Shown here: piece after piece, positions 2,514 through 62,977 of the stretch
Layout: each line of letters opens with the position of its first letter
Numbering within the stretch: position 1 is the first letter of the stretch
Assembly (NCBI RefSeq): GCF_032362555.1
Contig: NC_083508.1
Span: 7,779,001 to 7,843,000 of the forward strand
DNA: 64,000 nt
Source of the DNA: Amyelois transitella
Taxonomy: Eukaryota; Arthropoda; Insecta; Lepidoptera; Pyralidae
Direction of reading: 5' to 3'
The notes under the pieces: generated by a model
Databases searched by the model: none
The model's input: only the letters and a program-made list of their open reading frames with translations
Told to the model about the DNA's origin: nothing
Translations under genes and position numbers: made by a program

Positions 2514-3834
2514 CATTCAGTCAGAAAAGTATCGGGAATGGATTATTTATTTATGGTTCCAAATTAAAATTTTTGTTTTTTTTGTTGTTGTTAGATTGGC
2601 ACAACTGTTTTCCATTTTGGCGCGGAGTTTGAGTTGCATCTGTTGTTTACATTAAATACAGTGCTATTTTTAGTTATATCATATCTAGTGTGTATTGCTA
2701 ATTTCATAATGGATAAAAACATCGAACAAAGAGTTTGTCTTAAATTTTGCATTGCCAATGGAATATCGTGTTCGGAGTCACTGAAAATGTTACAGAAGGC
2801 TTACGGTGAATCGACTTTATCAAAAACTCGTGCTTATGAGTGGTACAAAGCGTTCAAAAGCGGTCGAGATGTGATGGAAGATTTGCCTCGCTCTGGTAGG
2901 CCATCAACGTCTGCAACTGAAGTTAACATCGCAAAAGTGAAGGAAATAGTGACTGAAAATCCTCATTCAACTTTGAGAGAGATAGCCACCGAACTTTCTG
3001 TATCTCATGAGTCGATCCGTACCATTTTAACTAATAATTTGGGTATGAAACATGTTGCCGCTCGGCTAGTCCCAAAAGACCTGAATTTTTTTCAAAAACT
3101 CAATCGCATGAGAGTCGCTGAGGACATGCTAGAACGAGTCAATTCCGACCCAACATTCATGAAACGCATTGTTACTGGTGACGAGACGTGGGTTTACGAG
3201 TTTGACATGCAAACTAGTCAACAAGCTTCGGAGTGGCGCCTTCCAACTGAACCGAAACCGAAAAAACCACGCCAAAGTCGTTCAAAAGTCAAAGTCATGT
3301 TGACTGTTTTCTTTGACTATCGCGGTGTTGTGCACTCGGAATTCTTGCCGGAAGGTCAAACGGTAAATAAGGAATATTATTTGAGTGTTATGCGGCGTTT
3401 AAGAGAGCAAATCCGACGAAAAAGGCCAGATTTGTGGAAAGAAAATTCTTGGATTTTGCACCATGATAATGCACCTTCGCACAAGGCCATCATTGTGAAC
3501 GAATTTTTAACCAAACACTCAACAAATACCATCGAGCAACCACCATATTCACCAGATATGGCTCCAGCCGACTTTTTTCTTTTTCCTTAACTCAAATTAC
3601 CACTTCGTGGCACCCGTTTTCAATCGGTAGAAGACATAAAAGAGAATTCGCGGCGAGAACTGACCTCAATTCCGGAAACAGCGTTTAAAAAATGTTTTGA
3701 TGATTGGATTATTCGTTGGCGTAAGTGTATCGTTTCTAAAGGAGCATATTTTGAAGGTGATAAAATAAATTTGGATAAATAACAAACAGTTTGTGTATTA
3801 TTGATCTTTTCCTGCTACTTTCTTGACAGAGTAG
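2514..3834 (+). mobile_element. mariner (Tc1/mariner) transposon, nearly complete
   Basis: A 1321-bp element is flanked by TA dinucleotides at 2512-2513 and 3835-3836, the expected target duplication. The left end, CATTCAGTCAGAAAAGTA, matches the reverse complement of the right end, CTACTCTGTCAAGAAAGTA, as imperfect inverted repeats of roughly 27-30 bp. The length suits a mariner. It encodes one transposase frame, described separately. I infer that it is inactive because of the nonsense codon. It lies in intergenic DNA well upstream of the TMEM132 gene. Confidence 0.93.
2709..3782 (+). pseudogene. mariner transposase with a single nonsense codon
   Basis: Transposases of this family cut and paste the element between its inverted repeats at TA sites. 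From the ATG at 2709 (preferred over the alternative start at 2634, which would add a non-family leader) the frame runs 357 codons. It begins MDKNIEQRVCLKF and has an N-terminal helix-turn-helix region. The catalytic triad is visible: D in TGDETW, D in HHDNAPSH, and D in SPDMAPADFF, with 34 residues between the second and third, giving D,D34D. The only disabling change I see is TAA at 3588-3590, directly after FFLFP. After it the same frame resumes with LKLPLRGTRF and runs about 63 more residues to the TAA at 3780-3782. The stop removes the end of the catalytic domain, so it is probably dead but young. Confidence 0.93.
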
Positions 3835-15100: not shown

Positions 15101-18100
15101 ATGACGGACTCGACACGTGAGTTATATTATAACTTTACAATGAAGGTAAAGGTAAGGTCAGCTAATTAGTGGAAAATTTGCCAACTGAGAAGTTGTGTCA
15201 ACAGCCTATTGACATTTCTTAAAGAAGCTGTTGGAAATGAAAATGACTTGCAGACAAACTGTGATATAATATTATTTTTTAATGTAATAACTTTTGAACT
15301 TTAAACAAGTATTAACCTACATATTTTACTGGCTTTAGTCTTTCCGGCAGGCGTAGGCAAATTTTGTCTATACAAGTTATTTTGTTATATATATCCGTAA
15401 TACTAAATAGCACATCGTCGTAGAAACATAAAAGGCGATCAACCGACCTAATATATTTTTATACGAAACACGTGTCTTGTGTTATGGAACTTCCTTGACG
15501 TGACCACGAACTGAATACCTTGTCTGCATAATATTTGCCGTAACGGATGTGTATTAAAGTTCCTGTTTACTTTTGCTTGAACAAACACGATACTCGCTCC
15601 GAATAAGATTGCAATCGGTGCAGCTGTATAGATGTAGTCACACTGCAGACGTGCGCTGCCGGTCAATGCAGCTCCGGCTTAAAGGATCCATTCCGCTTCT
15701 ATTTCCTCAAGCTTCGTTTTCAGTTTTTCGCTTTTCTACGAGACCATTGAAAGTAACTAGGTCAACTTGAACAACAAACCGAAAAGTTTGACTCTGTTGG
15801 GAAATAAGGACTACAAAGGCGACCGAACAAAACCGTTAAAGTTTACATCATGAGCACAAAGGATATTTCAGCCCCTATATATCCTGAAGACTTGATACTC
15901 TTTATGTATTAAATGACAAACTTAAGAAATAACTATGGGAACTAGGCTAAATTACTCATATTTTGATTGCAGCATCAGGCAAATCGGGCACTTGGGCTTT
16001 TAATGACACAGTTTAAAGAAACCAAGTATTTATTATATATATAAATTGGAAATTGGAAGGGTGTAACTTGTGTAGACTGTTACTGCTGTCAGTACACAAA
16101 TTGATATGTATCCAGGGGCTTAATTTATGTTGTGTAACAAAGAGTCATTTCAATTTCTTTAGTAGGATTGTTCTCAATTTCTTTAGCGGAGTACTGTAAC
16201 AGTGATTTATTCGCGAACAAGCAGGGTTATAAATCGGCACCGAGCGTTTGCGCTCTTGATGAAAGTCGACATTTCGACTGAAAAATATGGCCTGCAATCT
16301 GGATTTACTACTAGGTTTATATGATGAAACAGAGAAATTATTCGGAGTCTATAAACGGAAATATTTAGTTTGGAAAAACTATTTTCCTTTTCACAAGTAG
16401 TTTTTATGTACCCATTACCAAACGATTATTTAAGTATTTTCAATCTTTATGTTTAGGGACATGGAAGAAAACAGTGGAGCTGGCGGTCCGGGTTGGGAAG
16501 AAGTTCTGACGTGGTTGGTGGAAGTGGGGGCAGAGAGTGAGGGGGACGCGGAAGGGTCAGAAGGAGAGTCCGGACGCGGCACGGCTCGCCTCAGCTGGAT
16601 CGTCAGAATGTCAGCCAACCCCCCGTCTGGCTCCACCACGGAAGGCCCACCGCCGGAACATAGAGCCAACACGCGACTTGATATCGAGAAAGATGACATT
16701 CAAGCTGTGCTGCCTATTTCAAAGGTACGTGTATTAATGGAAACGTTGGGACGGGAAGGCCAGAAGACCGTGCCTTGGTCAATGGAAAAGGGTCAGAGTA
16801 TTCTAAACTAAAGAACTGACATGAAAAAAGTTATGAATGAAGCAAAAGAAATATGAAGATATCGTTGCATGATGTATGTATATTACTTAGCCTATTCCTC
16901 TTTGTGTGTATGAGTGGGTACCTAATGTATGATGTAATGTAATTGGATAGTATACGAAACGTTTTCAAACACTATTAAAAGTACCTATTTATATAATACC
17001 TTCCTTCAAATTTAATTTTCTGACTTAGATTTTCCAGTCTGGATTGAAATAGATTTTCTAAGTAAGCATACATACATACATACATAAAATCACGCCTCTT
17101 TCCTAGAGGGGTAGGCAGAGACTACCTCTTTCCACTTGCCACGATCTCTGCATATTTCCTTTGCTTCATCCACATTCAAGTAAGCAGTTTGTACGTATTT
17201 GCATACATAGGTTCTTTGGTTCTGCCATTACTTTAAAGGCTACTTTTGACAAATAACCTAAATAAATGTACAAAAGAAAACAATCAAATTGCTATTATGC
17301 GCTCGGTATTATCTTAGCAGATGCCCGAAATCAACAATTTATAGAGACGCCGATTGTAGCGATAAATTTACCAAAAGGTATTTTCTTGGTAATTAATGAG
17401 AGCAAAGGAACTCCTTTTATTGCTATAACGATATCTTCATCGAGTTACAAAGGTTTTATGTGAGCGGTGGCGACGTGCGTACTTAACTATTGCCTGTGAA
17501 TTGGACCGTAAAAACAGACGCACTAATTAAAGAATGTAATAAAAAATAAACGCTCTTTTAAGCATTATTATCTCGGTTGTGGAAGTGATTGTAACAAATC
17601 ATGGGGATTAACGTTAATGGAGTACTCTTAGTATGAATGAAGTGGTATGTAATGGCGGCTTTATCGCAGGCTAATGGACGCAACGAAACAACGAATTTGT
17701 TGTTGAATTTTTTAATACCTACTTTGAAGTATCAGCTGAAATAATAAGTAGCGGAATTTTTTCGCAATATGTTTTTTATTTTGCGCAGAGCATAGCTTAT
17801 CTATGATGTGAAAAATGATGTTCCAAAATATTTATGATGGTTATTCAGTTCATTATTTGACTGTTTCAGTTTTATTTAAGAGTGTGTATATATAGTAAAG
17901 TTAGAAAAAGCTTGGCTTAAGCTATATTATTTAGATTTATGGTGAATTAAGTAGGTATACTTCAGATCTATTTACTTTGAAAAATTATAATATCAATCAT
18001 GCCACAGATTCGATCAAAGGATTTTTGTGATTTGTTCAATTTGTATAAATGAGTTATTTTTTTAATAAGTGAGTTCTTAAATAACATTAGTATGTCACTA

Positions 18101-21100
18101 ATTTCTAGGAAAATTATTCAAAGTGAGTCGTTAGAAGCACGTGTCAAGGTGAATAGTAATAACTTTGGAATAATTCCTCAATTTCCTGTCGCTGTAGGCC
18201 CACGCAATTTAATTTAGTACCTACTTACGGAATGATCTTAACCTTCTAAATATAAACAAAATCACGGATTATGATCTAATAATATCTCGTCTAACATAGC
18301 TTGGATTAAAAAATTCTAATGTTTCGAGTTTATAAAAAATAGAAATTTAAAAAGAAAGCATTAATCTTTAGAAATGCTTTTGTTATTTCTATCTAACAGT
18401 AGCCGAAAAGGGTTGTAGGAGTGAAGTGAAGGTCATAAAATGTAGAACCCAAAAGCGGTTAACTCCTTATCTAATTACAATAATTTTCATCCTGCTGGCC
18501 ATAAATAGCCCTCGTCACAGGGCAAGGAGCGTGGGAATAATTAAAATCAAGTACTAAGTATTAAACTGTTGGTTTTATGATGAGATATTCTCCTTTATAG
18601 ACGCTGAATAATAAGTTCTAATACTTTAAACATTCCACGAATTACCTATAGGTACGGCGTTCTCTTGGTTTTAATATTTGCCTCAGCAAAATATTAAAAT
18701 GTTTTTCAACTTTATTTTGAGCTGGATTCTGAATCAAGTAATTTAATACAGCTGTATTAAACTGAATTCAGATCTAGTTTCAAAATGAAGGTTGTAAAAT
18801 TTTATTCGTCCAACTTTTGTGCAAGGTTCCTGGCGCTACGTCGTCGAAATAAGGATTTATGTTGTTTAATGCAAAGTCATCTTTTCCGCCGTAACCTCGG
18901 TGCAAACGAGTAAAAACTAGGGGAATAAAAACGGCTATCCGTCACGACTATGCATTTTGTAGATAAACTTGATTTGTTGGAGCAATTTACTGGTCATTTA
19001 TTAAACGTAGCGTGTGAGCGCTGCTAGTGAACTGAAATGCAAATTAAGATGTGAAAGTATATTGAGAATTATGCACTCAAATCTAACCTGCTTTTTTTCT
19101 TATTTTATGTGTCTAGAAACCATAGTCAACCAAATATTTCTTTTCCCTAAATCAAATACGAATACCACGTAATCTGTGATAACATGAAGCGACTAGCGAA
19201 GGTGAAATTGCTAAGATAGTCAATGAATTTTTTGTTTTAGAACTGGGAAGTTCTGAACACGGCGGTGCTGACTGGGCGCCAGGTGTCGCAAGCTATGAAG
19301 GTTCTCATCGTGTCTCAGGCCGGGCAGGTAGCTGACGTCACGCTGCAGAGTTCGTGCCACTCGGAAGACGAGAGCGTGCTCAAGGTAACCAGATCGATCA
19401 GGTTTAGTCCTCGACTTAACTTTTAAATGGTGTAAAATTAAAATGCATAAACTTAGGTAAAATGAGAAACAACACAGATTGAGCCCGCAGGAGTTGAAAT
19501 TTCATGCTCTATTGGACACTAACTATGTATGTGACCGTTATACCTGTGAACGAAATAAAATTTATCTTAACTCATAACAACAATAAAAAATTTACACACA
19601 CCTAAGTCATATTTTTGCGCGCTATTTTGGGTGTTCTTGGGTCACTTCTGATAGTAAATATTGTGTAAAGAGGATCGCTCTTATGTTTGAATTACAGAAG
19701 AATTTTAATGATAATACGGAAAAGGACGCTAGATGTAATGAAAATGAAATTTACGTACACAATTCATCTGAAACTTTCTTTTACAACTTCGGTTCGCCCG
19801 CGATTTCAGCCTTTTAAAGCTGTAATTAAATTACGATAAATATTGTGTTTGATATTCAAACTTTGCCACACTGCGGGTAACCGCAAAGTCGGCCGTTGCG
19901 GCATATTGCGGTCTACGCACGCAGCTGAAACCGTAAATCTCTTGGCATGGACGTTGTCGCTGTGCAATTTTCAGGCCTTTGGCACAGATAGGTAAGCGAT
20001 GTTAACAGTTGCTCTTTTGTCGGGGCAGCGACCGCAATGAAATTGATGAAGCTTTTTGTCCCGCTTTGCTTCCAAATAATTAATTTTGTTTTTTTAAACT
20101 CATACTTGAAATGAAACTGGAACCACTTTCTGAAGTCGTATTCACTTAATTCGCAAGGCGTATTTCACAATCTACTTATAATAACATTTGGTGTTCAAGT
20201 CGAAACTACGGTAAATTGGAATATGATCATATTGGCCGTTCCATCACTTATCGGTGATATCGTAGAAGGCAACTAACGAACAACTTACATACTCAATTTA
20301 GCAGGCTCGACTCGGCTTCGAATCCGACAGATTACTTATATTCAAGTTTTATACCGAGAGGAAGAAAAATAATAGGGTAAACATTTACTGTGTAATTTTA
20401 TTTAACATTATTCCCCATTATCTTCCTTGTGCAGGTTTCGTCTTCATGCAGTTCGGTTTACGTGGACGGCTCTGAGATAAGAGGCTCATCAAACGCGTCC
20501 GTCATTGTGAAATACGGCACATACACCGGCCTGGCCCGCTTCACTGTGTGGATGCCTGAGAGCCCGCTGGAAATCGATGTCGATGACAACAGGCTGTCGC
20601 AGATCAAAGGTTTGTTTAAAAACTAAACCTAATTATAATTAAATTTTATCTTAAAAAAAGGAAATCAAAATAGTCAATTGTCGGAAAAAAATGTTAGCAA
20701 TTTTAAACAATTCTACGTATTAACCAACCGACTATGCCTTATAAGAAAGGTCTGGTCTGTGTGATAGTGGCCTTATAGTGAAGTACCTACTTCCTAAGAA
20801 TGTCGTTGTCATGTTAACAGACTGCATCAACGCCGTATTCCGCAAATCTCAAAGCCAGAATAAATCACTTCAATATGCGAATATGTTACCCACTTTCATC
20901 CCATTGCCGCAACTACCAGCTCACGTAAAGCTGCTTAGCACTGATCGTAGAGTTCATGTATGTGTGTATGTTTGATCTGGCATTTATTAATCGTTGATTT
21001 GCCGACCATGGCCTGTATCTATAACGATGGCGCCATCGTAATCGATGGTAATACTTTAAACACGTGTTAATCACAAACGTATTACATAACTTATCAAATA

Positions 21101-22752
21101 TGATAGTTGATTTATATGGTTGTAGTTTATTATATTGATATTTTATAGGCTTTGCATAGTAAACAAGTAATACATGGATAACAATATGAATAAGCTGATG
21201 ACTCTAATAAATCATTCCGGAATCACGGCTATTCAACTGATAACAATCTGTCGACAATGCCTTTTTCATAACAGAATTGACAAGCAAAAATATTTCAAGT
21301 CATTGCAATTGTTCGCAGGTTGAAATTGACGAGCTTGCATAAAGTTAGTTATGAATGTAGATAAAGCGAAACAAGTATGCAGAGATCGTGGGAAATTATG
21401 GCTTGCCTATCTCTGCCTACTCCTCCGGTAAAGAGGCGTGAATTTATTCTTTTTATTTCTGGCGTTAGTGCCGGTTTCATCCTCACATATCTGGAAACGA
21501 GCCCGGGGTGCACCTTTTATAACCATCATCCTAGATTCAGTAAGTCGGGTACCCTCACGCAACTACTCGCATCGCTTTGCAACTTTTGAAGGGGAACTAA
21601 CACGGATGCGAAACTCAAGATGTTTTCCATCCCCGTAAGCATCACTCAAACTAATGTACATGAGATTCATTGGTACATAGAGGCGTGATTTTATATATCT
21701 ATCGTCGCAGGTTGGAAAGTGTCGGATGACTCGAGTATCAAGGAGAGGCTTAAGCGGTCGCTGTCTGCGAGAGGGTGGGGTGGCTCTAGGCCTGATGGCA
21801 CCAACGCACTGACCGACCAACGGACTTGCCGGCTGAGATATCAACAGAGCAATGTCGAGGTAAATGTCCTTAAAATATTTGATAGGATATAAATAATTTA
21901 ATACCTACAAATATAGTTCACCAATATTTTCTTCCCCTGCTGCAGAAAGGATATTTTAGTTGTGTTGTTTTTAAATCCTTCTAGGTTAATCATGTATAAG
22001 TGGTAGCGGTTAACACAATAGAAGCAAGGATTTTCGACTGTTGTCTAGGACGTAATGGGGTATGGACAAAGCAAGAAACCCACAGAGTAACTGTGAGAGT
22101 TTGAAATGTAGAGTCAACACTAATTTTATGCAGACTTATTACCCGTGGGAAGGTTTTGGATTCTACCTTCAATTTCCAAGAATTTAATACTTAGGTACTA
22201 GAGATAATTACCTGTGGCTAATCCAGTTTTACTACGGTCAATTATGTCAATAACTAGGTGACTTGAGAAGAGTTATTATCTTGTTGTCGTGGTATTCCGT
22301 GCATTTTGTTTCACCTGTTAAATGCCTACTTGAAACTTTAACTAAGTATGTACCTTGGTATAAATATTGAACACTAGCTGTTGCTAAAAGCGCGAAGCGC
22401 TTTTCTCCTCTACTCTATTCCTTTGGGAGAAGAATTTACTAAAAATTCTTTCTTAGCGGATGGATCTGTCCAATCCAGAATCTGTCGTAGGTACACTGAA
22501 CAAGGGATGGCAACTTCAAAGTTTTGACGGCCTCTGTGGCGCAGCGGTAGCGCGCTTGTCTGTGACACCAGGGGTCCCGGGTTCGAATCCCGGCCAGGGC
22601 ATGATGAGAAACGAACTTTCTCCGATTGGCCTGGGTCTTGGATGTTTATCTATATAAGTATTTATTATAAAATATAGTATCGTTGAGTTAGTATCTCGTA
22701 ACACAAGTCTCGAACTTACTTCGAGGCTAACTCAATCAGTGTAATTTGTCCC

Positions 22753-22822
<70 letters not shown>

Positions 22823-25800
22823 GCTTTTTTTACATGCCAAATTTTAGCCAAATCCGTTCAGTAGCAAAAATAACAACGCAACTTAAAGACCATTTAGAAT
22901 GGATTCCAGAAGTTGCCTTGACATCGCTTGACTTTTACGCGTACAATTATCACACACAATAACATCGAAAGCAAACTCGAGAAAGTCCAATGTCTTAACG
23001 GGAAGTCCGGCGATGCACCCAATCCGGTACACTATGCATACATTATGCATTCATAACGGTAAATGATTTGTGACAGTGTGAGAGAAGATATTCAATAGGT
23101 GCATGAATAAATTAAGGGCATAAACTATGCAGAACTGCAACAATAATGAGTGGTTTCTATGGTAATGTCAGGTTCCTATGCAAATATTTCATCATAAGCA
23201 TGTTAATTAGGCGGCTACCGATAATAGTTACATTTATATACGTGCATATTTCGTTTGTAGCGATTTATTATATTTACTTTTATCAAAAAATTTGCAATCA
23301 ATAGTATTAAGTATTCTCAGACACATTAGTTCCATATTCGTGCCTTTAAATCCCGGGAAGAACTTAATATTAATTAATCTGGCATTAGAACAGTGTCAGT
23401 AAAAGTGACCTTTGAAAATTCTTTGCCGCGTCGCTATACTCTAAAGTACAGTAACCGACCTTATCTATCGAACTTTCTCGTCGATCCATTGCAAAGTTTC
23501 CATCAGATAGGTGCAATTCCAACACAAACAAACTTCGTATGTTTTGCGAGCCACAAGGGAAGCTCGCTACCTTATATACCTACTTAGGTAAGTTTTGCAG
23601 GGACATCGTATACTGTGTAACGTGACTGTCCTCACTTTAAAGTTGGCAAGTAGCGGTTGTTCCAAACAAGTTTTCCGTAACAGTTTGTTCTAACTACAGC
23701 ACTCCGGTGCAACTCTGTGCAACGTTTTCAGGCTAAATCATACCGTTGGGAGGTGACATAACATATAAACACATGCAAAACATTTTTTTTCAGTTTCATA
23801 GAATGCAGTGTAAACAAACAAACTTTAACTGCGTGAGAGAAACCCTTTTTCATTCGTGTTTAAGATTATAACGGTAGCCTGGCTCAATGGCTCATTATTA
23901 TGTTTCGAAGAAAAGCAATTGCAAATACCATTTTTTGGGCATTGAGAAAGGAAGTTAATTATATACCCGTGTAGGTAAACTTCTAAAGTTAGGTAAAAGT
24001 CTGTCATATTATGTGTAGGTACCAACGTTCTTTTTTTTGTTCTCTTATTATCTGCACATTAACCTCCGCTGTGACACGAACAAAATGAATTTAATTATAG
24101 CCAATACTAATAAGGATTCTATAATTACTATCAGGTGTATGCACGATTCCTGGCTAAAGACCATGACTCTGGGCGCGTATCATACTTCGTGTCTCGTCGC
24201 ACCTGGCTCAAAGTGACGGAGCTGGTGTTATCTCTGATGCGGGTGTCGGACCCCAGAATCGCTTCCCTGAGGGGGCGCGTGCTCCAAGGAAGAAGTACTG
24301 GGCGTACTGAAGTGCAAGTGCTATCTCCTATAACAGGTATGTAGAACATATATTGGTAGTAGTTACATTCATACATACATACAAGCACGACTTTATCTTT
24401 TAAGGGGTAGACAGAGCCAACAGTCTCGAAAAGACCTAATAGGCTACGTTCAGCTTTGGCTTAATGATAGAATTGAGATTCAAATAGTGACAGGTTGCTA
24501 GCCCATCGCCTAAAAGAACGCTTTAACGATATCTATGGGAAAGTTATGAAGTGGTCATATTCTTTTTTCTATTGGTGCCGGGAATCACACGGCACTACTG
24601 GTAGTAGTACGTTACTAGGACAAATTGGTACTTTGAAATACTTTGAAAATTAAAATGTCTTTGCTTGACTATTGATGGATTAGATTTCCAAATGACGGAG
24701 CCAGATACTGATGCAGGTTGCGAATGTCCTAAAGAGGCAGGGTTTCGAGAATCCCATCAGCACATCGGGAGGCGAATGCTAAAGCATTCTTCTCTTAAAA
24801 GAGAGCACAGCACCGGGTCGAACTCTGTTCCATAAACAAAGGATGTCGAATCTTAGGATGGCTTTTTTTAGTGGGCACATGTAAGAAGAACGATTCTTTC
24901 TTTTTGATCACGGTGAAGTTTTCTCTCTCTTTAAAACCCTTCTCAATCAATGAGATATAGCTATATAGGTACTGTTTTAGTCCAATTTGTGTTAATAAAC
25001 GACAATTTTTCCAGGCCGTGTAATCGGCGTCAGAGAGATCCGTGTGGTAAACGACAAGGTGTCCATCTCCCGACTCTTGGTGCGGGTGATATCAGGACTA
25101 CAGCTGAACATATCGCCCGATACTGCAGGCATTGAGAACGGATACGTATCGGAAACTACCGTTACTAGGAGGCTCACTGCACAATATCAGGTAAGTACAT
25201 TATATTGGCACTTATTCTCTTGAATTTAATACAATCCATTGTAGACATGATAACCTCCTCCAAAGATATATATATCATGGCGAAGTGACGTACTTCCAAC
25301 GTCTTTCTGCAATGGTAAATAATCCCAAATTTTTTAGATAGGTAAGTTACAGATAAATAGTAGACCACATATAGACATAGTAGGTATTTCTGCGGTCTCC
25401 TGAGACTTACGAGCAGATACTTATAGGGCGATTACTGGTACCTAACTTTACTTAAAGTTATTAGTTTTTAATTAAAACATATTTTTTGTATTATATTTCA
25501 GGAGGGCCTTCTAGATATCGACATAGAATTTTCTGACGGCAGTCGCACAGCGTTGAGAGATGTCGCTGTATCTGATTACTACCTATTAGTGGAGAGCTTG
25601 GACCCCGAAGTGGTCGCGTTTGCGCCCATGTTGGCTTCACGACACCCGAGGGTTATTGCTGTTGGAGAAGGTAAATATTGTTGAGCTTTTTTAGGATGTT
25701 GATACGTCTCTGAGCTACTTAACCATATGCTCCAATGATAAGGTAACTTCTCTTTAAGCATCCCTGTTGACAGTTTTACAAACTTATTCATATAAGTTAA

Positions 25801-28800
25801 AAAAAATTATCTTTCTGAATAGTGTCCGGGGTACGACTTTAGAACTCACTTTTTGCTGATGTTTAACGCGAATATTTTGGGTCTTTCATTTTGCCGAAAG
25901 GATTTTTCGTTTTGGTTTTTTACCAGATGAAGCAGTATTATACCTTTTTATTACTACCTTGCAGCTGTTAGTGGTTTCCAAAAGTTATAATATAAACTTA
26001 TTTTTCCAGGCAGTGGAGAACTTCTTCGAGTGACCCTCCTCACCCCGGAACAATGCCGTTCGGGTCCTCTCCGTCGCGTAGCTTTACCAGGAAAAGGCGA
26101 CATGAAGACCCCAGCTAACATCAAGAACATACCTGGAGCTTTGGCCAGTGCTGCGGCGAGTGTGGACGTGGATTTCAGTGGTGGAGATATACCGCAAAGA
26201 CCTGACACTCCTCAGAACGATGATATTATGGCCCGTGGCGGATTGAGGTCGGGGTTGGCTGAGATTGGAGATATGATAAAAGGTAAGTAAAATGATCTGG
26301 AATATTTTAAGATGACTTGACTTTTACAACATGCATGTTAACCTAGTGCTTCTACTGATACCTTTTTACAGGGTACCGGATGCCAGACGAGAGTTCTGTT
26401 TTGTCTGACTAACATCATCCTGGATCATAGGCATAGGCTTATCTCAGAATCAAAGTGGACTCAACAGCGACGAACTAGAAGAATGTTGGAATGATATCTC
26501 CTGTTTTATTTCAGGTCACTCCTCAATGAAGGACGAGAACAACCGCGAGCCGATAGTCCAGCCTCAACAATACGGCTCCATCTTCCGCAACAGCCCACCG
26601 CACCACGCACCGCAACCACATGTTACGCCCGTCGAAATTGGTAATAAACGTCAACTACTCATAAAAAAACTACATTATGCATACTTTCGATAACATTTCA
26701 TAATAATTTATTCTTCTTTTCAGGAATGTATGTTCTACTAGGCGCATTCTGTTTCGCGATTGTGGTAAGTAAAATTTTCAACTATAAGTACTCGTAACAC
26801 GATACATACTAAGCAAAGTTTTAAGTTATCAAGATATATACTTACTTAATGTACGCTCCAGCCAAAATATTGTTACCTATTGTGTGATTGAATAAAACCT
26901 TTTCAACTTCCTCGACAGGTGTTCGTAGTATCATGCGTGGTATACGCGTCCCGCCTCAAGCCTGTGGGTGCTGAGTCCAGCCCGGGCGGTGCTCGCGGGC
27001 TGCCCGCACTTGCCGAAGGCGGGCGGCTTCAAGTCGCTGGGCTCGTTGGTACTACGTTAGGGTTAGCTCGGGACAAACAAACGAGGGATTCCACTACTAA
27101 CGCTCATGATTGGGTGTGGCTTGGTAAGTAACACAAGGCTTAATTACCTACTGAAGGGGTTTTAGATAAATGGATGTCTAGATCATTCTCCTCTCTTTGT
27201 TTGACCACGATCCTAGATTGTAAAATGGTAAGTCAGGTTTTTACACGAACCGACTTTTGACTGGCTTCCGCAACTTTTGCAGGGGAACATACATATATTG
27301 GATCGTAGTTTCACATTCAATGGCCTGAATGTGTAGGTTTCCTCAAATAGTTCTCTCTCACCGTAAATACATCGAACCAAAGTAATGTACATAACTCTAG
27401 ATGCCTACGCCATTATTATTATCTTTTTGGCATGTATGAGTTGCACTACCGACTGACATATGATGTCAAACCAGCACTTAAAATTGATATCAACCTTAAA
27501 TGAGATAATTTAAATTACAGGACGTGCGACGATAGAACGCAACGGTAACCGCCACCCAGCCAACCGCAGCTCAGCCCAGCCTCCAGACAACGCGAATGCC
27601 AACGAAATGCGTATCACGGCCAATCCTTTAAACTACAATTATGTGGACCCTGATGATGCTATCAGAGACAACGGGAATGTCATGGTGACAAGCTTCGATA
27701 ACCCCAACTCGATTGAGCTGCCCTCACAGAACGATAGGAGAGTGATCGATTCGACGACATACTGCAAAAAATCGTCGCGACATAATCGGAGCCACTCAGG
27801 AGACGGGCATTGGCAGTAAGTAATTATTATAATAGCTAGGTGTAATATAAGAAAAGAAACGAAAAAAGAATCACGCCCAATCCCCTAAAATACACACAAC
27901 ATAGATCACGATGACGCTATCAGAGACAACGGGCACGTTATGGTCTCAAACTCGACCAAACTACAGAACGATAGGAGAGTGATAAATTCGTGTCCACTGT
28001 ACATATTACACCAACGTTGCACCACTTCACTTTTTTATTTTTATATACTTACCCCCTATATTTTTTACATCTTTAGTTACAGTTGATAACAGATGCGTAC
28101 CGTAGATGAGTTATAATTTAATCGTTTTGGTCCTCAGGGCGGATGGTCCCAACCAAGACGACTACCGGCCTCCAGTGCCGCCACATCGCAACTCATCTTC
28201 TACTCCTCAACCCCAGCTGCCACCACCACGGAACCCCAAAGTGAGTTGCAGAACTGGTGTACTTATGTAGTGAAGTTGATGTTGAAGTTATTGAAATAGT
28301 ACCAATCTTTTCTACAACCACAGATTGTAGAAAGAGTACAATTACAAAAGCAAACAAATTGGACAGAACAGTTGGTCTACTACCCCGGACTGACAAAATG
28401 CGGCCTGTTGTTACGCCATCTTTTCTTTTCCAATTTTTTTTTACTTTTGATAGATCCTTCAGTCATGTGGAAAATTAATCAATTATTTAATAATTGTGTA
28501 TACCTACTTCTTTATATATATATATCTTCACAAGTGGAAAGAGAAAAGTTGGAAAGCGAATTCCAGGCCCCAGAAGCATTATGGTGCAACACGCAAGGAT
28601 GAGAGTGAGATTAGGGTCTTCATAAATATGATCTGTTAGTCTCATGTGCTATTTATCATTCAACTTGCTGTGTGTAAATCTTTAGCTATGTAAACTATGC
28701 TTCGTTTCAGATTTTACCCGAAACTGTCATGCCACCATCGCGAAGGAACCACTCCCGGAATCACCATAAACGACACGACCGCGATCATGACTCCCGGAGG

Positions 28801-30510
28801 TCCCCGGAACATGGTCGCCGCACAGACAGGTAAAATAAAACTTTATAACATATAAAAATTTCATTTATTTATTTTACTTACCATCTGATACCGGTTGTTG
28901 GGACATTTATTTCCCCAACCGACACTGAGGTGTCGTTAAAAAAGCTTTTTTATAAATGTTTCCCGTTATTGGTAACTATTATTCGGCTGTGACTTAAAAT
29001 ATACTTCCATACTTTCAGAATTATTGATTTGAACAAAGCTGACGCACCTTACTTATCGAGCCGAGACGTGAAACGAGATTCGAACCCGCTATCCCACGAA
29101 CTAGCCGACAACCCTGTAGAAAAGCTTACCAACAAGGAGGACTGCTCCCGCCTCTTCGAATTCGACAATGACGCTCCCCTCGTGATGGAAAACAAGGATT
29201 ATCGGGAGATCGTTGGGCTCAACAGAGGCACTGACGACTCCCGCCGCACCTTCGCTAAACCACAGAGCCCAGACTACATGCATGACTCCGGAATAGGTGT
29301 GTTTTAACTTTGTGTTACAAATGAGGTTTATTTTAGTGGAAGAAAAATAAGATTTGATAATACAATATGCCCATAATCTAGAATATAGGTACAAAGTACC
29401 AAGAACTAAGTACGACCAGTAGTTTCAGCCAAGCAATGTTGGTCGGTCTCAGACTAAGAATTTTTAGAAATCTGACATAACTAAGTTTGTAATATCAATG
29501 ACATCAATACTCTAATGTACATAGTCCATGGAATAAGTTCGTTTGTTTTAACAACATTTTATTTTTGTAATGTAATGTGAAAACAATCATAATTATTTCA
29601 TCACGACAGGATTACCTGAAGTGCAGATGAGGCACAAAAGGGTGAAAGAGCCAAAAGGCGACTTTGTTGAGGCTTCAAATCAAACTAAAGGTGAGTTACT
29701 TTTAAGAATGTCATGAACAACTTACATTACCTATTCATAGAATAATCCAAACTTCATAGAGGAGTGGTGAAACATCTTAAATGTTTCACATTTATTATAT
29801 ACCTATTAGCGTATTAGGTATTGCAAAATAATCTGGAATGTACCTATATTAAGTATTATATATTGAGTATGATCAACGGCATGTGTGGTCGCAGACAGCA
29901 GTTCCCCGGAGGTGAAGCGTGCCACCATCGTGGGGAACCCCATGTACTCGCGCGGCGGCCCCGAGCCGGAGCCGCTCGGCATCGACGATCTCCACATGGA
30001 CTACGACCAGATCATGCACTATTTCCACAACCTCAAGGTATAAGCACACGCCGTCCCACCACGCTTCTAGTGTAGATGTTGCTGACGCTTCCGGCGCCCG
30101 CCGCGCGAACTATCATACGTATCTCGATGTTCGATGTACCTATCTATCTAACTCTCTTATGAATACAGCCTAAATTTTGATGCATTTAAAACGAATAGCG
30201 TAGTTTTGTATGAGTACCTACGTTTTATACAAATATACATTAATGCCATGCAGTATTCTTAAATAAGATACTATTAAGATTATCTTTAAGTACTATCACA
30301 ACCCTGCAGCCAATCTCAACTTCAGGCATTAGCCTAACACTTTAGCACCCTTCACTATTCTAACCTGCCACTCATTCTATCATCAATGTAGAGTGCTAGA
30401 GGGCAGTCACTAGATGTAATGTGTGAAACTCACTTTACTGTAAATCCTTTTCGCTGCAGAAACCTGACTTATGTCTGTTTTCAAATTTTTCGCAGGAATC
30501 AAACGCCTGA
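9088..30510 (+). CDS. TMEM132: TMEM132-family single-pass neural adhesion protein (spliced, 21 exons)
   Basis: TMEM132 proteins are type I membrane proteins with immunoglobulin-like and cohesin-like ectodomain modules, linked to neural adhesion. Coding exons: 9088-9187 (putative), 11319-12150, 14970-15116, 16457-16724, 19241-19384, 20435-20609, 21711-21859, 24135-24336, 25015-25190, 25502-25670, 26010-26282, 26515-26640, 26724-26764, 26919-27123, 27521-27815, 28138-28240, 28711-28829, 29019-29296, 29610-29690, 29895-30037, 30496-30510. Every junction is GT-AG and in phase, totalling 4041 nt and 1346 residues. Family signatures include WEVLNTAVLTGRQVSQAMKV, SSCSSVYVDGSEIRGSSNAS and FTVWMPESPLEIDVDDNRLS. 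One membrane helix lies near residues 922-944, and the tail is about 400 residues. Vertebrate members are roughly 1000-1100 aa, so this one is long, mainly in the tail. Exon 1 and the exact C-terminus are the uncertain parts. The Drosophila relative is, from memory, detonator. Confidence 0.92.
10783..11010 (+). repeat. family A repeat, long copy in TMEM132 intron 1
   Basis: It runs from CCCATGGATGTCGTAAAAGG through AACCTGTCACTATTTGAATC and CAGCTGAACG to TAGACGTGACTG and a TATG run. An internal segment (GGCCACGTTCAG) is slightly rearranged against other copies. The rest of intron 1 (9188-11318) shows no gene. Confidence 0.75.
11319..12150 (+). CDS. TMEM132: TMEM132 exon 2: N-terminal ectodomain
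   Basis: This is the largest exon (832 nt). It follows a pyrimidine tract and acceptor TTGTTACAG and ends at donor CAG|GTTAGT. It encodes the first ectodomain portion, with FENKDSGFFLKHTARW near its start and HIHLPFVVRR-like sequence (RIHLPFVVRRDSTHDVGH) near its end, typical of the TMEM132 N-terminal region. GC content and codon choice are strongly unlike the flanking introns. It leaves phase 2 (AG), and the A at 14970 completes the arginine codon. Confidence 0.92.
12151..14969 (+). other. TMEM132 intron 2
   Basis: The intron is bounded by GTTAGT and CCTATAG. Two interspersed repeats lie inside, about 13345-13480 (TATACATATAATAAATCTGT type) and 14519-14709. Small open frames at 12358-12624 and 12766-13206 have no recognisable family and no splice context. 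Confidence 0.6.
14519..14709 (+). repeat. interspersed RTE-like repeat
   Basis: It begins CTACAAATATTATAAATGCG, contains CTGCTGAACCGATTACGATG and GAAATTTGGTATGTAGGTAG, and ends in GGCGGCCTCTAGT. It is nearly collinear with the copy at 53359-53565. Confidence 0.75.
16736..16875 (+). repeat. family B repeat fragment directly after TMEM132 exon 4
   Basis: Motifs GGACGGGAAGGCCAGAAGAC and ATGAAAAAAGTTATGAATGA recur (with divergence) in the other family B copies. It starts about ten bases past the donor of exon 4, so it is intronic. Confidence 0.5.
17066..17185 (-). repeat. family B repeat
   Basis: On the plus strand it reads (CATA)n, AATCACGCCTCTTTCCTAGA, GGGGTAGGCAGAGACTACCT, then CACGATCTCTGCATATTTCC. 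Plus-strand relatives are at 21334 and 35655. The remainder of this intron (16725-19240) shows nothing I can name. Confidence 0.7.
21334..21446 (+). repeat. family B repeat in TMEM132 intron 6
   Basis: It contains AGTTATGAATGTAGATAAAG, GTATGCAGAGATCGTGGG and AAAGAGGCGTGAAT, collinear with 35726-35845. Confidence 0.65.
21455..21690 (-). repeat. family C repeat just upstream of TMEM132 exon 7
   Basis: On the plus strand it reads GGCGTTAGTGCCGGTTTCAT, then GATTCAGTAAGTCGGGTA, and near the end ACTAATGTACATGAGATTCA. It ends about 20 bp before the exon 7 acceptor at 21710. Confidence 0.6.
22372..22525 (+). repeat. 5' half of an older RTE-like repeat split by a SINE
   Basis: It begins ACTAGCTGTTGCTAAAAGCG and reads to about 22525, where the SINE starts. 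The likely continuation is after the A-tract at 22820 (ACATGCCAAATTTTAGCCAA and CCGTTCAGTAGC). It is an insertion of one repeat into another. Confidence 0.5.
22526..22819 (+). repeat. young tRNA-derived SINE (family D) with a 65-base A-tail
   Basis: The tRNA-like head shows an A-box-like TGGCGCAGCGGTAGCGCG and a good B box, GGGTTCGAATCCC. The body reads GATTGGCCTGGGTCTTGGAT ... CTTACTTCGAGGCTAACTCA, and the tail is uninterrupted A from 22755 to 22819. The long pure A-run suggests a recent insertion. It sits in TMEM132 intron 7, in the sense orientation. Confidence 0.9.
24366..24610 (-). repeat. family A repeat, full-length copy in TMEM132 intron 8
   Basis: On the plus strand it runs (CATA)n, TAAGGGGTAGACAGAGCCAA, GAGATTCAAATAGTGACAGG, GCTAGCCCATCGCCTAAAAG and ends in TTGGTGCCGGGAATCACACG. 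This is the reverse complement of the copy at 45250-45495. Confidence 0.75.
26724..27123 (+). CDS. TMEM132: TMEM132 exons 13-14: transmembrane segment
   Basis: The membrane helix is split by a small intron (26765-26918). Exon 13 (26724-26764, only 41 nt) encodes MYVLLGAFCFAIV and exon 14 (26919-27123) continues VFVVSCVVYASRLK, giving about 23 hydrophobic residues followed by a basic stop-transfer. This places everything upstream outside the cell and everything downstream in the cytoplasm. The rest of exon 14 is Gly/Ala-rich juxtamembrane sequence ending in HDWVWLG, the start of the conserved TMEM132 cytoplasmic region. Confidence 0.93.
27521..27815 (+). CDS. TMEM132: TMEM132 exon 15: cytoplasmic tail with a WIRS-like motif
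   Basis: The encoded tail segment includes ITANPLNYNYVDPDDAI and then NVMVTSFDNPN. VTSFDN (about residues 1058-1063) fits the WAVE-complex-binding WIRS pattern (hydrophobic, any, T/S, F/Y, any, any). TMEM132 proteins have been linked to the WAVE complex, so a role in actin coupling is a reasonable inference. The exon ends in phase 2 (CA) and is completed by G at 28138. A decayed copy of its middle lies in the next intron. Confidence 0.9.
27870..27990 (+). pseudogene. decayed partial copy of TMEM132 exon 15 in intron 15
   Basis: This stretch parallels exon 15 from 27613 onward. ATCACGCCCAATCCCCTAAA matches ATCACGGCCAATCCTTTAAA. GACGCTATCAGAGACAACGG matches GATGCTATCAGAGACAACGG. CAGAACGATAGGAGAGTGAT is identical in both. 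A one-base length change before GCTATCAG shifts the frame, and a stretch in the middle (the counterpart of GATAACCCCAACTCG) is missing. It therefore cannot substitute for exon 15. I saw no matching splice sites. It is a tandem partial exon duplication that has degenerated. Confidence 0.8.
29895..30510 (+). CDS. TMEM132: TMEM132 exons 20-21: canonical C-terminus
   Basis: Exon 20 (29895-30037) encodes VGNPMYSRGGPEPE, with an exact NPxY motif (NPMY, about residues 1309-1312), and then MDYDQIMHYFHNLK. Failure to splice its donor would end the protein at once (AAG GTA TAA). Splicing to the acceptor CGCAG at 30495 adds ESNA and a TGA at 30508-30510. The short last exon sits in phase with the rest, and I think ...YFHNLKESNA is the family-type end, although I cannot align it here. 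Confidence 0.8.
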
Positions 30511-30816
30511 GTAGAGCAGATCATTGCAAAGATCCGGCAGATATTGTCTACGTTTAAATATCAGCATATCATCAAAGCTCCTCCAATCGACGTATACAAT
30601 GCGCCCCCCGCCACGGCCGGGGCCGGCCTCGAGGATAGTACCATTGACAGACACAACAACAACGCGTTGCCGACCGACGCACACATTTACCAAAACGTTA
30701 ACAACGGTAACGCGGTCGCGCCCGCCACGCTTTGCGATTCCATCGCGCACAAAAACATTTTCATGACAAAACAACTGGAATTCCTATTGGAACACTTGAG
30801 CGAAGCTTACGAATGA
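30511..30816 (+). CDS. in-frame extension beyond the TMEM132 stop (alternative C-terminus)
   Basis: After the TGA at 30508 the same frame stays open for 101 more codons to the TGA at 30814-30816, from VEQIIAKIRQILSTFKYQ to LEFLLEHLSEAYE. Codons are strongly G/C-ending like the TMEM132 exons, and sequence turns AT-rich just after 30816, marking a coding boundary. Two further AGs, ending at 30519 (GAGCAG) and 30540 (CGGCAG), are both in phase 0 with exon 20. Choosing either would skip the stop and give a tail about 90 residues longer. Stop readthrough is the other route, though TGA followed by GTA is not the leakiest context. Confidence 0.6.
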   Translation, partial: VEQIIAKIRQILSTFKYQHIIKAPPIDVYNAPPATAGAGLEDSTIDRHNNNALPTDAHIYQNVNNGNAVAPATLCDSIAHKNIFMTKQLEFLLEHLSEAYE

Positions 30817-32640
30817 ATTTGTTCGATGTCAATGTATTATCCTCAAACAATATATGTCTATATTTGGATCCTTGCAGTGATCGGAAACGAAAATATTCAA
30901 ATGTAACTGATTTATACATATATACTATCGTTAAACGTATATACTCTAGTCATCTACAAAGCTGCACATATTTAAAAACCTAATAGAAAATAATTGTGTG
31001 CATGTAGTTAAATACTCATTATGTCAATGATATTAGATATATATATATAATATACTTACTTAAACATGCAATGTGTTAAATGTATGATTGAAGTCCTCCA
31101 AACGATGCGGACCCTCAACTTGTAATTCTTGCCTACGGCAACAACCTTGACGCTGCCACTTATAGTCCCACACCAAATAAAGAATGACTTTGCATTTGCT
31201 CTAGATTTGTAAATATCTTTCCACTAGAAGGTAAATACGCTACCTCACGTTTATCTTATAGCTTAGCTTATTATTATTTAACTTGTTTTGTTCGAATCAG
31301 TAAGTTACTTCCACGAATTGAGGAACGCTGAAATTAGTTTTTAAGACTGCAAAAGCCAGTGTTTAGGGAATTAATCATAGCGTTAAGATAGATTTAAATC
31401 ACAGAACTAGTCAAATATATTGTAATACTAACTAACAAGAGCTACTGTTTTGCTCAAAGCTGTTATACTTTTCTCCGTTAACACTGCCGTAACGCCCAGA
31501 TACATACTTAATTGACATATCTACGGTAATAACTATGTAAGAAAAAAAAATGATTACTTACATTTTTTTTGTTGAAATACTAACTTGAAAACCAATGAGC
31601 TCATTGCAACGCTAATTGTTTTCAAGTAGCTGTACTAATTTCAGTTCATTACTCTATAACCGAATATCCAAAACCTTTAGATGAACTGGTGATGAGTATA
31701 ATACAATTTAGTTAAAGATAAAAGTATATTAAAATTTTGCGAATTATCGAACAAAGAGAATGGTTTTAACTTGTGATAAAATGACTGCTACTTACGATTG
31801 ATTTTATATGCGGTCTATTTTATAAATAAAAAGCCATATCATATTATGAAATTAGCGCTTGTATGATATTGTAAACACTATATTATTTATTGAAGATGTA
31901 CATTGCATTTACTCGGTAAGATTAGTTCATTAGGCTTTGTAAATATTGTTATGACGTTATATAATTTATAGATATGTGAAGGGGACAAATCAGTAATAGA
32001 AATGAATGTGGTAGAGTCGCTTAACATAATTATGGAAAGAGTAGACTTGCACACTATATTGAAAATGTTTCATGTCTGTTACAGTACACATAAGTAACTA
32101 GTGTATGTTTTGATCTCGTAATTGTGTATTGATGTGATCCTAAATAGTTCAGAAGACGTCAGAAAATATGTTATTTTAGTGGAATAGGCGACCAGTTATT
32201 GAAGCATTTTGTGTATCAGTTAATTCCTTGTATACTGAACGCATTGTAAACAAGATAATCTAAATTATTGTACGGCTACCATGAGTTTTGCTTGTCTAGA
32301 ATCACTAGGGCGGATAGTTAAGACATTTATGAATTATACACAAGTTTTTCACAATAATCTTTAGGGATGTTGCAAAATAAAAACTTATGGTAGCTTTACT
32401 ACTAGTGTGTTGTTTGGCTTTCGTCGTTAGGTTAGGGAAGAGTCACAAGATGTAAGTACTCTACGCTGTAGTATTTGTTACTGTAACATTTGTTTTTGTT
32501 GAGTTTTTGCCATAATATATAAGAAAGGAGTTTATAAATAAATTATTGCTACAAGGTTTATATACATGTATGCAAACTGAGGCTTGTCACGAAATCCTTT
32601 CATAAAATGTCAAATTTAATAAACCATTATTAATTAATAT
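30817..32640 (+). other. likely TMEM132 3' UTR
   Basis: AT-rich sequence without a coding frame follows the last open frame. AATAAA signals occur at 31176-31181, 31825-31830 and 32376-32381, with another AAATAAA near 32536, so several polyadenylation sites are possible. Long 3' UTRs are common for neural insect genes. The exact end cannot be told from sequence. Confidence 0.55.
31176..31181 (+). terminator. AATAAA polyadenylation signal, candidate for TMEM132
   Basis: This is the first canonical signal after the TMEM132 stop codons, within ACACCAAATAAAGAATG. Confidence 0.45.
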
Positions 32641-32717: not shown

Positions 32718-33740
32718 TTCTTTGTTCTGGTGTTAGTCCCGGTTATATCCTCATCTTTTTAGAGGGGAGCTCAGGTGCACCTTTATACCGTGATTTGCGT
32801 AAGCCAGGTTTTATACAAAGCGACAAAGCGAAATTAACCCATTTTGAATCATGGTAAAAGCTGGACTAGATAAATGTGCCTATTTTTTTGTTTTCAATTT
32901 TTTTTAAATTTGAGTTGGGAGTTGAGATCCGGGAAAAATACGGTACTTGAAAGTATATCTTGTGTTCCTCTTGGCTTTAGTCGCGGTTCAGTGGTGAGGA
33001 CACCACTCTGGAGAGGTGCCAGGGGTATGCCTTTTAACCATGGATTCTGGATTGGGTGAGTCAAGTTTTTACACGAAGCAATTCCCATCTGACCTCCGCA
33101 ACCTTTGCAGGTAAACCTAACCCGCACTGGCTCGATCATGGTGACCCATCCAGTTGCCTTTATGTGCAGGTTTCCTCACGATGTTTTTTCTCAGCGTAAG
33201 TGCATCGGTTAATATTCAAACTAATGTACATAACTCCTAAAATAGTTTTTTTTGTTTTCAATTTTTTTTAAATTTGAGTTGGGAGTTGAGATCCGGGAAA
33301 AATACGGTACTTGAAAGTATATCTTGTGTTCCTCTTGGCTTTAGTCGCGGTTCAGTGGTGAGGACACCACTCTGGAGAGGCGCCCGGGGTATGCCTTTTA
33401 ACCATGGATCCTGGATTGGGTGAGTCAAGTTTTTACACGAAGCAAATCCCATCTGACCTCCGCAACCTTTGCAGGTAAACCTAACCCGCACTGGCTCGAT
33501 CATGGTGACCCATCCAGTTGCCTTTATGTGCAGGTTTCCTCACGATGTTTTTTCTCAGCGTAAGTGCATCGGTTAATATTCAAACTAATGTACATAACTC
33601 CTAAAATAGTTCATAGTCAAGTACACGGCCAAGGTGGAATTCGAACCTGTGCCTTTCTGCGCGAACCTGCGTTTTCTGCCTTCTGTCAAGCATTTAAACC
33701 GGGCACCTTACCCATTCGCCCACCGATGCTCTATAATCTA
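32718..33740 (-). repeat. family C repeat cluster (tRNA-like SINE sense on the minus strand)
   Basis: The plus strand reads GTTAGTCCCGGTTATATCCT at 32735, and the fullest copy ends near 33740 with CACCTTACCCATTCGCCCAC. Read on the minus strand, that end starts GTGGGCGAATGGGTAAGGTG (A-box-like) and later has CAGGTTCGAATTCCACC (B-box-like). I therefore infer a tRNA-derived SINE transcribed leftwards. The cluster contains a tandem duplication, listed separately. Confidence 0.6.
32885..33612. repeat. 364-bp tandem duplication, two near-identical copies
   Basis: Copy 1 is about 32885-33248 and copy 2 about 33249-33612. The period of 364 bp is fixed by the anchor CGGTACTTGAAAG at 32941 and 33305. 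I count only about four substitutions, for example GGTGCCAGGGG versus GGCGCCCGGGG, and GCAATTCCC versus GCAAATCCC. Open frames of 81 codons on the minus strand in each copy are by-products of the repeat, not genes. It is either a recent local duplication or an assembly artefact. Confidence 0.9.
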
Positions 33741-42361: not shown

Positions 42362-44328
42362 TCAATAAGAAAATGTCTGTTTCAGCACATTTCCCAAGTC
42401 ATCTTCAACTACAATTGTCAACACTTTGCTTTTAGGGGAAAATGTAAACGGCACTAAAAACCTTTTCTCCGGTAACAAGTTAGTAAATTCATAAGAATCT
42501 AAAACCATCCCATTTGATTCATCTCGTACTTCTACTATTCTTATTCCAGCTGTTGAAATAATCATCATTTTGTTTTTATCGAATTTGAGATATCTTGTAA
42601 TGGCTTGCCTTTCTCTTCCATATTCATTATTAAACCATCTGTGATATGATAACAAGACAGCACAATTTCTCGTCCAGTAAATTGAATCATTGCCATTAAC
42701 GCGGTTTATATTTCTTTTAGATTCCGATTTGTTTGTGATATTCGAATAAACACTCGATGGTCTAGTGATTGGTGTAACATTTGGGCTTCTTCTTATTATG
42801 TCGCTTTTAGACATAGAAGCGAAATTTCCCAGAGTGGTCTTACTTCTTGGTCCCAAAACCCGTAAAGGTTCGGCGACATTCATAGTAACGCTGATATTAC
42901 GTTGAAGTGAAACAGTAGAATGCTGCACAGGTTTTCCGTTATAATTATTCATACTGTCCTTAACCATTGATGTACGTTTTTCTCCGACAGTAAAAACACG
43001 ATCAATGTTGTCAAAACCTCTTCCCATTATGCCATCTTTCGTGTGCCCAAGATCAAAAGTGTGGCCAAGCTCGTGGAACACTGATCCTAATGTAGTTGCG
43101 AAACATCCACCGAAGGTTCCTCTATAGCCACTGTCATCCATAAATCGATGTATGTTTACGGGAGAGGAGTCTAAAAATTTTGGTAATATTTCTTCTACAG
43201 AATTTGGCCATGTGTATAAACATGCAGTTCCGAATAAAGCCAAACCGCCCCCACCCAAAGCAGCATAGGCTTCGGTCAAGGAAACTATTTCCTCGTGGGT
43301 CATTGGCTTATCAATATCCGTACCTTTAAATCTGGTACATGAAATAAAACCCAAAAATTTTCTCTCGTTACTGCCTAAGTCAGAAAGCATTAATTCTCGC
43401 CCGAAATGTGTCCAAAGTTCAGCTTGTTTCATTTTTCGTGCCTTATTAACATTTAATGTGCTTCGAAAAACAATACACTCTGGTTTTTTAGGATCCACTT
43501 CATGCTCTAGTTGGAATGTTTTTCTTCCAACTCCACTTTCAAATAATTTTTCTGCAGTTATACTTTGGATTAATTTAGAACCAAGTGCTAATCGAGAACA
43601 GGCACTTTCGACTGAGTTATCGATGTCGGGTGGGCTTTGAAAACAACCGTCGTGGCCCTGACATATTATGTACACAGGAGTGACTCTCAGGTTTGTCTTC
43701 CTTGGTGTATAATCAAGCAAGAGAACTTTGCGTTGTTGGTCAGATTGCTGAAGTTCAATTAAATTTTCTCCTCTTTTTAGTTCTACAATAACCTTGAACT
43801 CTCCGTTGTAAACGTTCCATTCTGATTTGTTTTTGATACCATCACTTGATGTTGTGCATAATATTTTATCTTGATTATTGGAATTACCTCTTGTTATAAT
43901 TCCTTTTATTAAAACGAGAGAATAGTTGACAGTTTCTCCATTTTGAAAATTTGTTACGAAGATTGACGAATTATGCTCATGCTCATTTTCTTCTCGGGTA
44001 TCCATTACCTGAAACGTAGATTGATTCAGCGTTAAAATTATTTATCTTAGTTGCTTTAAAGTATGTAGCCTTGATTGCTGTCTTGATAACTTTATTAAAA
44101 CAGCATATATGAATCTAGTTAATTATGTTATAGTCACTGACATGTATATAGAATTCGAGTTTGTTATGCGTCAATGTTTGTTTAGTTAACGTGTTTAATG
44201 TGCCTACCGCATAATTTGATTTTAAAGTATCATTGAAGTCAGTGGAGCAGTTTGATATATTTTTAACTGAACGCAGTATTGAAAGGTCGTAGCAAATTAA
44301 TAGTTTCGCACTTGTTATGACTCACCAT
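42362..44328 (-). CDS. putative zinc metallopeptidase, YIL108W-like family
   Basis: This is a predicted zinc-dependent protease of the little-studied family named after yeast YIL108W; I do not know its substrate. Coding is almost one exon (44008-42362), with the initiator ATG as the last triplet of exon 1 (44328-44326), so the protein starts M-V-M-D-T-R-E-E-N and is 549 aa. The zinc site HELGHTFDLGH (about residues 313-323) has the form HExxHxxDxxH, followed by an IMGRG Met-turn candidate. An N-terminal beta-rich region precedes it. The C-terminal third (SIYWTRNCAVLLSYHRWFN onward) may be a carbohydrate-binding-like domain. No signal peptide is seen, so it is probably intracellular. If translation instead began at the exon 2 ATG (44005) it would lose only two residues. 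Confidence 0.88.
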
Positions 44329-62875: not shown

Positions 62876-62977
62876 ATGTAAGTAAAGTAATCCTTTTTTA
62901 AATTTAGTGTAAACATATATGTAACAACCAATTTAAGAACCATAAAATAAAAACTTCTTATTTTGCTTCAGCAAACC

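Follow-up and report, generated by a model that had tools for sequence, protein, structure and literature searches.

Does TMEM132 of the moth Amyelois transitella end in one way or in two? The question is raised by the 3' end of a gene that its sequence identifies as TMEM132, on the forward strand of a 64,000-nucleotide (nt) stretch of contig NC_083508.1 (assembly GCF_032362555.1, positions 7,779,001 to 7,843,000). This whole stretch is the window, and all positions given here are counted in it. An earlier note proposed that the protein has a short C-terminus, the residues ESNA, and a second one about 90-100 residues longer, reached by alternative splice acceptors or by stop codon readthrough. 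Our preferred reading, to which we give a probability of about 0.42, is that the protein ends mainly at ESNA and that a 101-codon extension is made only by occasional UGA readthrough, not by splicing. The extension is a fair readthrough candidate, about as likely to be one as to be an untranslated frame that is open by chance. Two C-termini could still arise through readthrough, but we consider the splice switch of the note unlikely.

The assignment to TMEM132 made in the earlier note was borne out by family matches along the gene. In a Pfam scan of ten exon translations, TMEM132 families matched seven. PF23481, PF16070 (in two exons), PF23486 and PF23487 exceeded the Pfam cut-offs on single exons, and PF15705, PF23039 and PF15706 fell below them. 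We placed 17 coding exons by hand, from 11319 to 30037, with open frames, agreement of phase and generic splice scores as guides. The 16 acceptors assigned in this way are sequence-based placements, not transcripts, and upstream exons may be missing. From 26919 onward the phases are clean and lead into a single frame, whose first stop follows ESNA. The 3' end of the gene has the following parts:

29895 to 30037, forward strand: penultimate coding exon (exon 20), an open frame with a third-position G+C fraction (GC3) of 0.91, a cag/A acceptor and phases that fit its neighbours.
30496 to 30510, forward strand: last coding exon of the short form, GAA TCA AAC GCC TGA (ESNA and stop), whose acceptor AG ends at 30495.
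30511 to 30816, forward strand: open 101-codon extension, the candidate readthrough tail, open from 30511 to 30813 and closed by the TGA at 30814-30816.
31176 to 31181, forward strand: AATAAA, the sole AATAAA or ATTAAA of this strand in 30041-31700, which would serve either C-terminus.

The penultimate exon ends in ...MDYDQIMHYFHNLK at phase 0, before a weak donor (AAG/GTATAAG), and its end at 30037 connects to 30496 without a change of phase, giving ESNA and TGA, just as the earlier note had it. The short C-terminus, with its TGA at 30508, is likely the canonical one. Within the same exon, a donor-like site in phase, GAG/GTGAAG after 29911, outscores the weak donor at 30038. If the last intron were retained, the protein would end in LKV and a stop.

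The frame does run on for 101 codons beyond the TGA at 30508. Among dinucleotide shuffles, 30511-30813 stayed open in 55 of 2000 and, in a second run, in 20 of 1000; the composition-corrected codon score of the tail, trained on the exons of its own gene, was equalled or exceeded in 15 of 2000 and in 3 of 1000. Under this TMEM132-trained model the tail has a z of 2.1-2.9, the value of 2.1 lying inside the span of the placed exons, which runs from -0.3 to 4.0. Each of the four training sets gives the tail a positive amino-acid component of the score (z 1.8-2.4). The G/C-ending codons that had been likened to those of real exons are found in the tail taken as a whole, whose GC3 of 0.63 lies between the lowest and highest values (0.42-0.91) of 16 of the 17 exons, but not in 30541-30600, where GC3 drops to 0.40. 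The remaining exon, the large 5' exon at 11319-12150, favours A/T-ending codons (GC3 0.33, and 0.65 at first codon positions); its z is 3.6 under the codon model of a neighbouring gene and -0.3 under that of its own.

A serious competing explanation is that the tail is ordinary 3' untranslated region (UTR), GC-rich, stop-free by chance and never translated, so that ESNA is the sole C-terminus. For comparison we scored 170 segments from other parts of the window, with a GC content like that of the tail, in all six frames (1020 frame slots, the window's other genes included). With all exons in training, 44 slots match the codon score of the tail, as an untranslated region would lead one to expect; without the unusual first exon 11 do, and only 2 of these are open as well as high-scoring, both antisense of the open reading frame (ORF) at 62951-63469. 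This joint rarity (2 of 1020) argues against an untranslated region.

If the tail is translated, the TGA has to be passed or avoided. The earlier note suggested that a 24-nt or 45-nt shift of the last acceptor would skip it and yield a spliced long form. Four sites bear on this suggestion:

30520, forward strand: first exon base of the proposed 24-nt alternative acceptor, rejected.
30541, forward strand: first exon base of the proposed 45-nt alternative acceptor, rejected.
30464 to 30468, forward strand: CTGAC, a branch-point-like site for the 30496 acceptor, its A 29 nt upstream of the exon start.
30460 to 30495, forward strand: candidate in-phase upstream acceptor variant (score 4.55), which would place 12 more codons (KPDLCLFSNFSQ) ahead of ESNA.

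The AGs ending at 30519 and 30540 are present and in phase, as the suggestion needs. Of the 13 AGs within 30498-30813, 6 are in phase 0, so being in phase is unremarkable, and none has a positive score in an acceptor model of the gene itself. This model was built from the 16 assigned sites, whose leave-one-out scores run from -3.5 to 8.8, with the 1086 other AGs of the gene span as background. It gives 4.55 to 30460, 0.48 to 30496, -7.33 to 30520 and -7.08 to 30541, scores exceeded by 0.9%, 5.7%, 45% and 44% of the background AGs, respectively. A generic model gives 4.9, 4.9, -1.0 and 0.07 in the same order, and at least 0.9 to the assigned sites. The acceptor of 30496 has 15 pyrimidines in 20 nt, and its closest upstream AG is 36 nt off. 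The corresponding tracts of 30520 and 30541 hold 8 and 9 pyrimidines (10-16 in the assigned acceptors), and an AG lies 3 and 9 nt upstream, respectively; among the assigned acceptors, the 58 nt upstream are free of AG in 4, the distance to the closest AG is at least 20 nt in 11, and one, at 26014, lies 4 nt behind another AG. An AG exclusion zone is a known concept (PMC1431707). Both sites also stand just downstream of the good AG at 30495, which has its own branch-like site. Since they score below every one of the 16 assigned acceptors, with weak pyrimidine tracts and AGs close upstream, we reject them as competent tandem acceptors with 30496, and consider a long form spliced through them highly improbable. 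The site at 30460, overlooked by the earlier note, is stronger than 30496 in the own-gene model and equal to it in the generic one, which makes it a better candidate for a tandem acceptor than 30520 or 30541. The CTGAC site falls after 30460 and favours 30496.

A downstream start was likewise rejected, the sole in-frame ATG of the tail coming late, at 30763. With neither a well-scoring acceptor nor an early in-frame ATG, translation of the tail would need UGA readthrough. A-to-I editing of the TGA to TGG was also considered; a G preceding the A is disfavoured. Selenocysteine at the TGA was discarded, as the data so far suggest that selenoproteins are lacking in Lepidoptera (PMC2500217). Readthrough is the route that remains, and it fits insects generally, but the coding evidence for the tail is moderate and conflicting. 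In FlyBase, 328 genes are listed as readthrough genes, and among animals abundant readthrough may be limited to insects and crustacea (PMC4528330). The first stop of TMEM132 is a TGA (30508), the usual and preferred class among insect readthrough genes (Jungreis et al. 2016, PMC5100048). As far as these two sources describe such genes, TMEM132 also shares with them a long, many-exon structure and a second ORF that is open in frame without a well-scoring acceptor or an early start; unlike them, it has G instead of C at +4 and lacks a clear RNA structure. Among the alternative coding explanations that are considered for readthrough genes, acceptors and an internal ATG are unlikely here, and the antisense codon score rivals the sense one. 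Literature searches found no paper joining TMEM132 with "stop codon readthrough" (supplementary gene lists lay outside the search) and none joining CG14446 with "readthrough" or, for Drosophila, detonator with stop codon readthrough; the 10 papers retrieved for transmembrane protein 132 and moth were, judged by title, unrelated.

Several observations weigh against readthrough at this stop. The +4 base is G and not the favoured C; C follows the stop in 49-63% of readthrough candidate groups, which is a tendency (PMC5100048). RNA folding was scored over three stretches that begin at or just after the TGA, and it is weak past the stop: over 100 nt z is -1.96 (4 of 200 shuffles), over 60 nt it is -0.58 (50 of 200), and over 140 nt beginning with the stop codon it is 0.38 (124 of 200). 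A stable RNA structure after the stop is found in only a minority of insect readthrough candidates. The codon signal is concentrated in 30601-30750 (z 2.6, matched by 5 of 1000 shuffles); neither the opening 30 codons of the tail (266 of 1000) nor the closing 21 (319 of 1000) show any. That segment coincides with a compositional feature:

30601 to 30750, forward strand: GC-rich block (63%), the best two-change-point fit, which bears most of the codon-phase signal.

The start of the block is supported within 30573-30605 and its end within 30630-30753, and the ORF borders, 30511-30813, fit about 10 log units worse. A block that ignores the ORF borders is what untranslated sequence would show. 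The G+C counts per 20-base bin are flat across the second stop (7, 7 and 8 before 30816; 6, 6 and 8 beyond), and together with the block fit they refute the collapse of GC that the earlier note had placed directly after it.

A further difficulty lies in the dependence of the codon score on the training gene. An independent gene in the window allows the comparison:

42362 to 44041, reverse strand: putative metallopeptidase in a single frame, 559 aa stop to stop (PF12044, E 8e-83).

The codon model of this gene finds no sense signal in the tail (z -0.2 to -0.3), against 2.5 to 3.4 in the antisense mirror, which puts the tail lowest and its mirror highest of the 18 segments scored (the 17 exons and the tail). 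Under the TMEM132 model, too, the mirror, at z 2.1, is the highest mirror of the 18. With both genes in training the values are 1.7 for the tail vs 3.3 for the antisense, and the amino-acid part of the score is also positive for the mirror (1.4-2.9). Given these mirror scores and the dependence on the training gene, codon statistics neither prove that the tail is coding nor fix its strand, and they add to the case for an untranslated region. A mirror score that equals or exceeds the sense score might also be read as the signal of an opposite-strand gene, the 94-aa antisense ORF at 30499-30783. Its product gives a poor AlphaFold model, with a predicted local distance difference test (pLDDT) of 41, and has valine runs that, by eye, are unlike an ordinary protein; we hold such a gene to be very improbable.

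Comparison with the fly also points toward a single end. Drosophila detonator (dtn, CG14446) is the single fly TMEM132, with 1320 residues and a guide RNA site at residue 1202 (PMC7808601). We read fly peptides from the guide and primer oligonucleotides printed in that paper, for which the fragment arithmetic leaves two solutions. The favoured one uses the printed fragment numbers unchanged (287 + 216 = 503) and reads HSHSHN ... QFDSLTP ... QMERTR, which matches HSRNHH, EFDNDAP and QMRHKR of the moth with the order kept. Shuffled fly peptides match equally well in 62 of 2000 trials for the three peptides and 80 of 5000 for two, in a test devised after looking, and the spacings agree poorly (73 and 51 residues in the moth vs 53 and 67 in the fly). 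After the F of EFDNDAP, equated with fly residue 1202 from the Cas9 cut site, 123 residues are left in the moth short form, 225 in the long form and 118 in the fly; after QMRHKR the numbers are 73, 175 and about 52. The record coordinates in PMC7808601 disagree with its amplicon sizes by about 44-55 bases, counted by hand. Since the fly has 118 residues left vs 123 in the moth short form, the annotated fly protein more likely ends at the equivalent of ESNA, which these oligonucleotides suggest and do not prove. On this reading the fly doesn't carry the tail constitutively, as would be expected if the moth tail were untranslated. Detonator thus resembles the moth protein in its orthologous family, its long cytoplasmic part and the three peptide matches in order, and differs in that it seemingly ends at the moth short-form position, without the 101-residue tail.

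The less favoured orientation reads GVSESNW, or LVSANRT in another open frame, and needs both printed fragment lengths to be increased by one. The single best moth match of GVSESNW is NLKESNA (score 13), which lies 102 residues ahead of the end of the long form. The joint score of the three oligonucleotides is 54 for the favoured set and 38 with GVSESNW, and shuffles of the favoured set average 42.7. This orientation would mean the opposite, a tail that is constitutive in the fly.

The fly also bears on the idea that the tail was ancestrally coding and that the TGA arose recently, is polymorphic or stems from an assembly error, leaving a frame that is a fresh relic or is intact in other individuals. 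Such a history would explain a coding-like frame that has neither a favoured readthrough context nor an acceptor. With a fly end near ESNA, and not 100 residues later, a constitutive tail would have to postdate the fly-moth split; the less favoured guide orientation reverses this argument. We regard this idea as a whole as quite unlikely.

Searches for relatives also gave the tail no backing. None were found for the tail in genome_contigs (70 pattern stretches) or viral_contigs (8), or for the last two exons in genome_contigs (221) or viral_contigs (32), and the exon plus tail had no match in PDB up to E 1. The large 5' exon had none in viral_contigs (4 pattern stretches), the sole collection tried for it. 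The collections searched are microbial, viral or structural, and absence of relatives from them therefore says little.

Tests of the predicted peptide, in turn, modestly favour the sense frame, and count against an untranslated region. One peptide that translation of the tail would yield is the following:

Within 30511 to 30813, forward strand, example peptide of the predicted tail: QLEFLLEHLSEAYE

The first predicted helix of the tail, VEQIIAKIRQILSTFK, is amphipathic to a degree reached by 33 of 5000 residue shuffles. By this measure the last tail helix (320 of 5000) is unremarkable, as is the exon end DDLHMDYDQIMHYFHNLKESNA (438 of 5000). In single-sequence AlphaFold models the tail has a mean pLDDT of 60 at best, with values of at least 70 for 36 of its 101 residues (60, 53, 46, 46 and 45 over the five models). 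The antisense ORF, used as control, reaches 41, with 0 of 94 residues at that level (41, 35, 35, 35 and 34). Single-sequence models favour helix-prone strings, and this advantage is therefore modest evidence. In Pfam the tail had only a weak HU-HIG match (E 0.17), below the cut-off.

The cytoplasmic end of human TMEM132D binds parts of the WAVE complex and has KFTTFTAV, a string like the WAVE interacting receptor sequence (WIRS); the cytoplasmic tail of C. elegans TMEM-132 is likewise WAVE-complex-binding (PMC7962252). A pattern search finds the WIRS-like VTSFDN in the constitutive cytoplasmic part of the moth protein, a location shared with the WIRS-like motifs of human TMEM132D and C. elegans TMEM-132 (PMC7962252); a difference is that a second such string, LSTFKY, lies in the unproven tail of the moth. 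Shuffling the residues of the tail produces the pattern in 391 of 5000 trials; LSTFKY is therefore no evidence, and was discarded as support for coding.

The window contains three other features:

2595 to 3590, forward strand: long, uninterrupted mariner-like transposase frame, 331 aa stop to stop (PF01359, PF17906).
32883 to 33611: 364-bp unit in two tandem copies with 98% matches.
62951 to 63469, forward strand: repetitive proline/valine-rich frame with a start that looks, by eye, like a signal peptide; no Pfam match at E 0.001.

In the reading that we prefer, ribosomes would occasionally pass the UGA at 30508 and translate 101 further codons. The predicted amphipathic helix VEQIIAKIRQILSTFK would then open the tail, following immediately on the MDYDQIMHYFHNLKESNA end, and the long form could alter what the cytoplasmic end binds. 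A more specific version, which we consider unlikely, is that the UGA acts as a switch. The added tail, carrying an amphipathic helix and another motif resembling those that bind the WAVE complex, would then give a neural adhesion receptor a rare long form with different coupling to actin.

If the tail is untranslated, the locus is a caution, as an open, GC3-rich frame after a stop can pass a codon test trained on its own gene and fail one trained on a neighbour. If it is translated, TMEM132 would be one more readthrough gene of insects. Its receptor family, which has been linked to panic disorder, hearing loss and control of the WAVE complex, would then have a natural long form, the function of which could be tested by changing one codon.

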